Of a DNA stretch of 64,000 nucleotides, positions 6,598 to 61,029 are shown in pieces (the stretch's first letter is position 1; the number at the start of each line of letters is the position of its first letter). The stretch lies in contig JAENYN010000005.1 of assembly GCA_016841765.1 (NCBI GenBank), forward strand, positions 1 through 64,000, written 5' to 3'. Both the position numbers and the translations under genes were made by a program. The notes beneath the pieces were generated by a model. The model saw nothing but the letters and a program-made list of their open reading frames with translations. It made no database searches and was not told the DNA's origin. The DNA is from Guptibacillus hwajinpoensis. GTDB lineage: Bacteria > Bacillota > Bacilli > Bacillales > Bacillaceae_O.

Positions 6598-7647
6598 TTA
6601 GTTGGAAGCTTTTTTTTCAGCAGAATATTCGTGTACAAATCGGGTCAGTTGCTGCAGGGTTTCCACTTTTACTTCCGGAAAGACGCCATGGCCGAGGTTG
6701 AAAATATATCCCGGGTCTTTCATGCCTTCGTCCAGGATTTCTTTCGCTTTTTCTTCTATGACAGGCCATGGGGCCAGCAGCATTGCCGGGTCCAGGTTGC
6801 CCTGCAGCGTTTTGGTCATCCCCATAGAGCGGGCTTCTGAAATCGGGAGGCGCCAGTCAAGACCAACAACATCAAGAGGCAGGTCATGCCAGTCCATCGC
6901 AAGGTGTCCTGCTCCGACGCCAAACATGATGAGTGGGACGCCTTCTTCCTTCAAACTGGAAAAAATCCGCGTCATCACCGGTTTGACATACTTGCGGTAA
7001 TCATCCTTATTCAATGCGCCGACCCATGAATCAAAGATCTGGATTGCCTGGGCCCCGGCGTTGATCTGTGCTTTCACATAATCAATGACCATGTCGCCCA
7101 GTTTTTCCATTAATAAGTGCCAGCCTTCAGGGTCTGTATACATAAATGCTTTCGTTTTGTAATAATTTTTGGAAGGTCCGCCTTCAATCATGTAGCTCGC
7201 CAATGTGAAAGGCGCTCCGCTGAAGCTGATCAGTGGAACGGATAACTGTTCACGGAGCAACTTGATCGTATCGAGGACATATGGCACATCCTGTTCCGGC
7301 TTGATGATGCCGAGCCGTTCAACATCCGCCCGGGAGGAAACCGGGTTGCTGATGACCGGGCCGATTCCCGGCTTGATTTCGACATCGATCCCGATTGCCG
7401 GAAGCGGAGTCATAATGTCTTTATATAGGATTGCCGCGTCCACGCCGTGCTGCTCTACCGGCAGTCTTGTCACATACGCGCACAGCTCTGGCTGGTGGGT
7501 TATTTCAAAAAGGGAATATTTTTTCTTGATTTCACGGTATTCAGGCTGATAACGCCCGGCCTGCCTCATATACCAGACCGGAACATGGTCTGTTTCTGCA
7601 CCCCGGCACGCTTTTAAAAACGCATCATTAAACGGCTTAGTCGTCAT
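6598..7647 (-). CDS. hemE: Uroporphyrinogen decarboxylase
   Basis: Product of 349 aa. It decarboxylates the four acetate side chains of uroporphyrinogen III to give coproporphyrinogen III. The family signature WYMRQAGRY spans residues 25-33 and the catalytic aspartate is probably Asp77 in [17 protein letters not shown] ribosome binding site precedes the ATG. It is the first gene of the hemEHY operon, whose order is the same as in B. subtilis. Confidence 0.97.
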
Positions 7648-7976
7648 GACATCACACCTCTCTATTATGTAGGCTCTATTTGATCTTTTTGCTGTAAATT
7701 CAAATTGAATCGTATGCTAAGGGCATGCTGGAAGCGCCGGCTTGAAGCGGACACGGCGCCCGGCATTGTCACTGCCATAATCACGCCGGATTACAGGCGA
7801 ATATTGCCCGAGTTTTTTGGAAGCAAAAAAAAGAGCCTTCGAATTAAACAAAACTGTCAACTTTTCTGCACATAGGTGAATTATATCATAAATCCGCCCG
7901 CCAAATCATATTCCGGGCCGTTTGTCCATCTAATCGGCAGAAAACACCAAATGCATTGCGCATTCAGTGTTTTGCT
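7648..7976. other. Intergenic region upstream of hemE
   Basis: 329 bp between hemE and the M50 peptidase gene, both on the minus strand. It must contain the hemE promoter. TTGACA (minus strand, complement of 7855-7860) is a candidate -35, but no good -10 follows at the right spacing. The right end holds the terminator of the peptidase gene. No repeat or small gene was recognised. Confidence 0.4.
7941..7973 (-). terminator. Terminator of the M50 peptidase gene
   Basis: Imperfect hairpin AAAACAC-TGAATGC...GCATTTG-GTGTTTT on the minus strand, directly after the stop codon at 7977 and followed by TTTTC. Confidence 0.55.
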
Positions 7977-8642
7977 TCAGAAGAATATAGCTGAAAACAG
8001 GCTGTCAAGAAAACCGGTCACAGCCGGAATCACCCGGTTGAAAATAGGCTGTATCGTGTAGCGATATAAGGGGGTGATAATGAGAAACAGAAAGATGATG
8101 ATGCCGAATGATTCATATCGAGTCAGCTTCGCCCTAACATCAGGGGGTGACAAATCTTCAACAATCCGATACCCGTCAAGCGGAGGAAACGGGAGCAGGT
8201 TAAAGACGAATAAGATGACATTCAGATAAATGAACGTATTGAAAAATTGGTAAATGATATCAGATACTGCCCCTGACATCGTCTCCTCAATGCCGGTCAC
8301 AATCATGGCATACCAGAGCACAAACCCAAGGGCGGCCAGAAGAAGATTGCTGAACGGCCCCGCAGCTGATACGAGGATCCCGGAAAGGCGGGGCTTTTTA
8401 AAATAAAACCGGTTGACCGGAACAGGGCGTGCCCATCCGAATCCGGCAATCAAAATCATGACCGTCCCGAATACGTCGAGATGAGCAAACGGCGATAACG
8501 TGAGCCTGCCCTGATTCTTCGCCGTTGGATCGCCGAATTTATAGGCGACATACGCATGGGAAAATTCATGGACCGAAAAGGCAATTGCGAGTGTAATTAA
8601 AAGATAAGGTAAATCCTCCAGTTCAAAAAAGAAAAAGTCCAT
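7977..8642 (-). CDS. Site-2 protease-like (M50 family) membrane metallopeptidase
   Basis: Product of 221 aa, strongly hydrophobic with about five or six membrane segments. The zinc motif HEFSH is at residues 25-29 and the third-ligand motif PPLDGYRI places Asp156, both characteristic of compact YwhC-type M50 peptidases that cleave within membranes. There is no PDZ domain, unlike RseP. The substrate cannot be told from the sequence. It lies between pbpF and hemE, a position where B. subtilis has no such gene, so it is probably a lineage-specific insertion into a conserved backbone. Confidence 0.85.
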   Translation of the reverse strand: MDFFFFELEDLPYLLITLAIAFSVHEFSHAYVAYKFGDPTAKNQGRLTLSPFAHLDVFGTVMILIAGFGWARPVPVNRFYFKKPRLSGILVSAAGPFSNLLLAALGFVLWYAMIVTGIEETMSGAVSDIIYQFFNTFIYLNVILFVFNLLPFPPLDGYRIVEDLSPPDVRAKLTRYESFGIIIFLFLIITPLYRYTIQPIFNRVIPAVTGFLDSLFSAIFF

Positions 8643-60278: not shown

Positions 60279-60292
60279 CGAAAGCGTTTACA
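60279..60292. promoter_or_regulatory. Catabolite-responsive element (cre) upstream of the fatty-acid cluster
   Basis: CGAAAGCGTTTACA matches the cre consensus TGWAANCGNTNWCA at 13 of 14 positions. It lies 65-78 bp before the ligase start and downstream of the candidate promoter, where CcpA would act as a roadblock. Confidence 0.75.
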
Positions 60293-60348: not shown

Positions 60349-60445
60349 CACTTTTTCAAAAAAACTGCCAGATAATTGTTGCCTTTACAGAGAAAATCTT
60401 TTGAAAGTTCACATTTCCTCAACAGAATAAGGGTTTCCGCAATGC

Positions 60446-60824
60446 TATAATGTAGGTGAAATAATATAACAGCTGCAGAGACTCAGCCATCCTGGTTGGT
60501 TCCGTTCGAAAAACGAAGTACCAATCGGTGATCTTTTTTCCAGAAAGATATGAAGCAATGCATGTAGGATGCATGACTGCTCTGATGGAGAGTCCACTAA
60601 ATGATACAGGGGGGTTGTCTCGTTTCCAGGCTTCTGAAAATAGAGAATTTTGCTTTACCCGCCCCATCTGTTCGCAGCGGAAGCAACACACACGAGATCC
60701 TCGTGCTTTTAAGGCCAGGTTGCCTGGTATGGCATGCCTGCCAATCATTAAAAAATCGAGTGTCCTGTGGCATGGTTGGGTCCCTGGAGCTGTTAGCGAA
60801 AACCGGCATGAGTGCCGGTTTTTT
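60446..60824 (+). ncRNA. Candidate structured RNA with own promoter and terminator
   Basis: An extended -10 (TGCTATAAT, -10 at 60446-60451) is followed by a gene-free stretch ending in a strong terminator at 60799. Bases 60480-60594 fold as a multibranch: GACTC/GAGTC (60480-84 with 60590-94) and CCATC/GATGG (60487-91 with 60584-88) enclose three hairpins (60496-60524, 60531-60549, 60555-60580). Further hairpins are TTGCTT..CCGC/GCGG..AAGCAA (about 60651-60686), CACGAG/CTCGTG and CCAGG/CCTGG. I recognise no known riboswitch, 6S, tmRNA or RNase P consensus. Frames open through it are not protein-like. Confidence 0.4.
60799..60824 (+). terminator. Terminator upstream of the VOC gene
   Basis: AAAACCGGCA-TGAG-TGCCGGTTTT followed by TTCTG. 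No coding gene precedes it on this strand. The remaining bases up to 61029 show no gene. Confidence 0.88.
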
Positions 60825-61029
60825 CTGTGCAACAAAAAGGAAATAGAACCTCGTTTTCCGGGCAGATCTGCATCCGTGCAGGATGTTCCCTCGTCCCCTG
60901 CCGTTACCGGCATCCCATCCCAGGCACTGAATGCGATCGTGCACACACAGCCGCTGAATTGCAATATTTTCCCTTTTATCTTCCATATCATGTTAATCTG
61001 AAAACAGTATCAAGAAAGGGGAAATGATA

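Follow-up and report, generated by a model that had tools for sequence, protein, structure and literature searches.

A predicted free-standing RNA gene of Guptibacillus hwajinpoensis represents a structured RNA family of one Bacillales order that is probably tied to carbon and redox state

Known large RNAs and the gene unit in the window

It is rare for a new class of large structured RNA to be found in bacteria, and OLE, ROOL, GOLLD and raiA turned out to be unusual RNPs (ribonucleoproteins) or RNA-only complexes. OLE RNA, of about 600 nt, occurs in extremophilic Firmicutes and is localized at the membrane, and in Bacillus subtilis RoxS and SR1 are controlled by carbon or redox state. Protein partners are known for OLE RNA (PMC11332333, PMC9723947), and the raiA motif RNA (ModT) is a structured trans RNA found widely in Bacillota (PMC11706538).

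As a kind, large free-standing structured RNAs are already known, and by sequence comparison the family described here appears related to none of those listed in Rfam. Like OLE, its members are large, ornate and free-standing, belong to Bacillales and relatives and may have a function tied to adaptation; however, the closing stem and core differ and the OLE model matched no locus tested. ROOL and GOLLD are likewise large, size-variable and ornate, but gave no Rfam match, and we found no association of the present family with phages or plasmids. The raiA motif RNA differs in size range and core, again with no Rfam match. RoxS/RsaE and SR1 resemble the family in being free-standing Bacillus RNAs tied to redox or carbon control (a putative tie here), but they are much shorter and their Rfam models matched no locus tested.

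The comparison was made with Rfam 15, including OLE, ROOL, GOLLD, raiA, RsaE, 6S, RNase P, SRP, group I/II introns and HEARO, and no family reached its gathering threshold in the window (the whole 64,000 nt stretch of DNA that was analysed) or inside the RNA in 38 family loci. A first-pass annotation of this DNA had been unable to match the element to a known class, and this search bears that out. Rfam matched the family loci only outside the RNA, with 5S rRNA and BsrG; the BsrG-type RNA (type I toxin–antitoxin) is at 1957–2204 of L158, in the same locus as one family copy. In the open literature we found no description of such an RNA in these genera or of its signature words; a prior description in subscription papers is possible. 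As judged by these comparisons, the RNA is a compact member of a predicted family previously unlisted in Rfam and found in one Bacillales order.

From its sequence features, the stretch at 60446–60825 is a free-standing structured RNA gene with its own predicted promoter, a closed fold and an intrinsic terminator. Its parts, all on the + strand, are as follows, with the basis for each in brackets.

60402–60413, +, degenerate operator-like site TGAAAGTTCACA, about 32 bp upstream of the −10 (sequence; position of the cre or Rex/Fnr-like site of relatives)
60443–60451, +, extended −10, TGC TATAAT (sequence; a TG-extended −10 is present in most family members)
60467–60490, +, 5′ arm of P1, TAACAGCTGCAGAGACTCAGCCAT, its inner part nearly invariant in the family (covariation; pairing probability)
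60495–60504, +, 5′ arm of P2, GTTGGTTCCG (family comparison; p 0.78 in the window fold)
60505–60677, +, variable non-coding domain inside P2 (length comparison; about 173 nt in this copy and as many as about 850 nt in relatives)
60678–60687, +, 3′ arm of P2, CGGAAGCAAC (family comparison; window fold)
60688–60695, +, 5′ arm of P3, ACACACGA (P3 covaries in the family; seven of eight pairs possible in the window)
60756–60763, +, 3′ arm of P3, TCGAGTGT (as for the 5′ arm)
60772–60795, +, 3′ arm of P1, ATGGTTGGGTCCCTGGAGCTGTTA (covariation; window fold)
60799–60825, +, intrinsic terminator, AAAACCGGCA TGAG TGCCGGTTTT with a T-tail, directly after P1 (sequence; fold)

The extended −10 and the perfect terminator that had been read here at first pass are thus both present in the sequence, and transcription would start near 60458. 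A T-run also follows P1 in nearly all relatives of the window RNA. The ends given at first pass, 60446 and 60824, coincide with those of the conserved stretch, which is 87% identical in a sister species (G001); longer aligned blocks around the RNA are about 85% identical between the two, and the intergenic DNA just downstream (60833–60946) gave no alignment with G001. The 367-nt stretch has a folding energy of −136.3 kcal/mol, compared with −106.9 kcal/mol for shuffled sequences (z −5.4), and is more stable than 100 of 100 dinucleotide shuffles. By this fold score and by its conservation relative to the flank, the element is far beyond chance, as the annotation had supposed. Its suggestion of a standalone RNA is favoured by the promoter and terminator and by the unrelated neighbours of the RNA in other genomes.

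Closing stem and junction core

P1 is common to all homologues and has 24 bp, pairing 60467–60490 with 60772–60795 in the window. The 11 inner pairs (GRCUCARCCAU against AUGGUUGRGUC) hardly change in sequence, whereas most of the outer 13 vary and covary, and the window copy has both parts. In the window ensemble the inner pairs at 60478–60490 form with probabilities of 0.83–1.0, except for an A–C mismatch at 60479. Among 25 distinct sequences, 95% of the P1 cells are paired and 12 of the 24 pairs have changes on both sides. The covariation and arm-swap tests are inflated by the relatedness of the sequences, and under them P1 scored 0.364 for covariation compared with 0.146±0.012 in shuffles (0 of 500 reached it), while the outer P1 arms gave −15.1 kcal/mol with their own partners and −8.1 kcal/mol when swapped (0 of 2000 permutations reached the observed value). 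As the outer part of P1 was outside the search pattern used to collect members, its covariation was not built in. With slid partners the covariation score was at most 0.092, and all four Watson–Crick types are present at one P1 pair; together these speak against kinship as the source of the P1 result.

A multibranch fold had already been proposed at first pass, with a long-range stem of 60480–60491 with 60584–60594. The multibranch idea was right, but this helix has an ensemble probability of 0.0 and was rejected: its 5′ strand pairs instead with 60772–60782 (p about 0.8–1.0), which is the pairing that evolution preserves, and P1 takes its place.

Inside P1, the long-range helix P2 (GUWNGUUYC with a GGAANNRAAC-like partner) is present in the window with one mismatch and a pairing probability of 0.78. 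The P2 arms gave −10.8 kcal/mol with their own partners and −8.6 kcal/mol when swapped, supporting the helix overall; outside Halobacillaceae the arms hardly vary and the arm-swap test was not significant (192 of 2000). P3, between the 3′ arms of P2 and P1, gave −11.8 compared with −7.5 kcal/mol, a difference that none of 2000 permutations reached; in the window seven of its eight pairs are possible and it is absent from the minimum-energy fold (p about 0.0005). The mean fold z-score over 15 members was −6.8, and −3.8 for the interior without P1. Taken from this family comparison, the predicted core is a three-way junction in which P1 encloses P2, itself around the size-variable domain, and the covarying P3. 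Alignments of divergent members were unreliable over the variable arm, and no helices were drawn from them there.

Distribution of the family and its upstream operators

Homologues of about 250–1,000 nt were found at unrelated loci in at least 45 of 397 sampled genomes of the order, covering 15 of 47 families; this count comprises pattern matches with a complementary 3′ arm plus three genomes found by R1 (a model of the Halobacillaceae 3′ domain) alone, and all pattern-based counts are lower bounds. A DNA search of 61 genomes gave, beyond G001, one short match, in a genome of another family (G007). The window and G007 copies share the same layout, with a terminator directly behind each, but differ in the sequence of the outer stem, which is AACAGCTGCAGAGACTCAGCCAT..ATGGTTGGGTCCCTGGAGCTGTT in the window and GACCATTGAAGAGGCTCAACCAT..ATGGTTGGGTCCCTTCAGTGGTC in G007. 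With the G007 copy as the query, matches appeared in 25 of the 44 genomes of its family, and in some of them two or three copies are linked. The pattern CTCARCCATN{2,6}GTWNGTTYC gave 57 matches in the 397 genomes, compared with six for the reversed pattern, and most of these have a complementary 3′ arm 215–960 nt downstream, nearly always followed by a T-run. Scanning named genomes by pattern placed the members found with the G007 query in Halobacillus, Pontibacillus and Thalassobacillus, and R1 added the family f36, with two copies of about 980 nt. R1 fails to find the window copy, which was joined to the Halobacillaceae members through intermediates, namely G007 (L003) and then the pattern.

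Outside the order, and in viral contigs, the pattern matched at the control level and without a P1 partner. An R1 match in G014 was dropped as it sits in an apparently coding stretch, and L045 was a false member that was left out of later counts. Also discarded as chance matches were L142, L149, L152, L172, L173, L176, L177 and L179, which have no P1 partner, as well as L185, L187 and L188 from outside the order and L218–L223 from viral contigs. The result is a family that is widespread in one order and absent from Rfam, with a strongly supported core, and the several copies in some Halobacillus genomes provide natural comparisons.

Among 47 non-redundant promoters aligned on the −10, 27 contain a cre (CcpA) site with no more than one mismatch, compared with a mean of 0.13 and a maximum of 2 in shuffles. 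A Rex/Fnr-type palindrome, TTGTGAANNNNTTCACAA, with up to two mismatches is present in ten (0.03 in shuffles), and a direct repeat, TTHACA-N5-KNCAM, in 24. Nearly all of the cre and Rex-like sites end at one of two preferred distances upstream of the −10, 39–43 or 29–32 bp, which differ by about one helical turn; this is the geometry expected of an activator and would suggest activation rather than repression. These sites suggest that in most of the family CcpA and/or a redox regulator acts as the switch. The site TGAAAGTTCACA in the window falls below both the cre and the Rex thresholds. Neither a consensus cre nor a consensus Rex site is present in the window copy, and no cre or Rex/Fnr-like operator lies 29–43 bp upstream of its −10; it seems to have lost a consensus operator. 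As many members are without one, the operator was not counted as a defining feature of the family. The genome from which the window comes has genes for CcpA and for one Rex-type repressor. The operators hint at the conditions of expression, making function testable in culturable species such as Halobacillus.

Two further observations concern the flanks of the RNA. At 60279–60292, between the RNA gene and a minus-strand acyl-CoA synthetase gene, lies a near-consensus cre, CGAAAGCGTTTACA, which may put the fatty-acid cluster under CcpA. In L125, L126, L141 and others a conserved leader, GAUGUAAGGAAGAGAUAAACAAA, has its complement just before P1, giving a leader hairpin that the Halobacillaceae copies do not have.

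Proposed role and alternative explanations

The genes beside the RNA differ between subclades, and no gene family recurs next to it across them. There is a local exception in some Halobacillus strains, in which a polyphosphate kinase 2-like gene adjoins copies of the RNA, and acyl-CoA dehydrogenase and CoA-transferase-like genes lie near both the window and the G007 copies, in different orientation. Without a fixed neighbour across subclades, the RNA would act, if at all, in trans. In 8-kb windows from Halobacillus (L038, L061 and L070), two or three tandem copies surround the polyphosphate kinase 2-like gene, which is on the opposite strand, and in L041 and L058 this gene lies beside one copy.

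We consider it probable that the RNA gene in the window is an independent one, encoding a structured, non-coding RNA of about 350–370 nt that acts in trans, and that this RNA belongs to a new Bacillales family that serves as an RNP scaffold and is switched by CcpA or redox state in most members. The 24-bp P1 would clamp the ends of the RNA, with P2 and P3 forming the three-way-junction core inside it. A clamp and core that are almost invariant, beside an arm that is free to expand, make the pattern of a ribonucleoprotein scaffold, and for this reason we infer that the P1/junction core probably binds protein, the arm being lineage-specific. Transcription would be set by carbon and redox state in most species. 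Judging from the cre and Rex/Fnr-like sites, placed about 30 or 40 bp before the −10, the particle probably helps cells to adapt to carbon overflow or to a shortage of oxygen. The family is thus probably an RNP component tied to carbon/redox state. A broader proposal, which we put forward only tentatively, is of a wholly new class of large ornate RNA, assembling into an RNP or RNA complex in which the three-way-junction core is invariant and the arm lineage-specific, and serving as a CcpA/redox-switched controller of central metabolism across the order.

The main rival to the RNP scaffold would be an antisense sRNA with a large stabilizing fold, i.e. a RoxS- or SR1-like regulator that base-pairs with mRNAs and in which P1 and the folded body only stabilize the molecule. 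The carbon/redox operators fit the kind of control reported for two Bacillus subtilis sRNAs, RoxS and SR1 (sRNAs discussed in, for example, PMC5419742 and PMC8216469), and many members have a conserved A/G-rich leader, GUGUAAAGAAGAUAACAAA, ahead of P1. However, the family RNA is much larger than sRNAs of this type, its most conserved nucleotides sit within helices and the window copy does not share the conserved leader, so that we regard this explanation as unlikely.

Membership of a mobile element, as a retron-type RNA, the guide RNA of a transposon nuclease or an intron remnant, is very improbable. Linked tandem copies in some Halobacillus genomes and the unrelated loci between subclades would fit such an origin, but it is opposed by the lack of a gene family recurrent beside the RNA, by viral contigs yielding chance matches only, by a plasmid search with one member as the query that gave no match and by the absence of any Rfam intron, retron or HEARO match. 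Group I intron, retron and guide RNA were rejected for want of an Rfam match or a recurrent partner gene. The faint likeness to group I introns remarked on at first pass likewise falls away: Rfam intron models give no match, no host gene is interrupted, and the RNA lies between genes and has a promoter and terminator of its own.

That annotation had also offered the RNA as a leader for the downstream VOC gene. This gene lies on the same strand and begins about 200 bp beyond the RNA, a position kept in the sister species, yet the terminator closes the RNA unit upstream of it, and the downstream genes of other members differ and are often in the opposite direction. In other genomes the homologues do not precede VOC genes, and the validated copies have their own closing stem as their end, with a T-run terminator behind it in nearly all cases. 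With no such context in other genomes, we rejected a cis-acting leader or attenuator, a reading that is barely credible.

To a protein-coding region or a chance fold we give practically no credence: ORFs of 157 aa (+ strand) and 190 aa (− strand) span the RNA stretch, but between the window and the sister species the 157-aa ORF has a protein identity (72%) below its DNA identity (87%) in an alignment with indels, on which grounds coding was rejected, the body of a homologue of about 1 kb contains no ORF longer than 68 aa, and the covariation of the stems speaks against either possibility. No ORF here looks conserved, in agreement with the original description of the stretch as gene-free.

The copies of about 980 nt in L106 (about 7540–8500) and L107 (about 90–1100) exceed the window copy more than twofold in size and have no ORF, and their expanded arm merits a structural study of its own.
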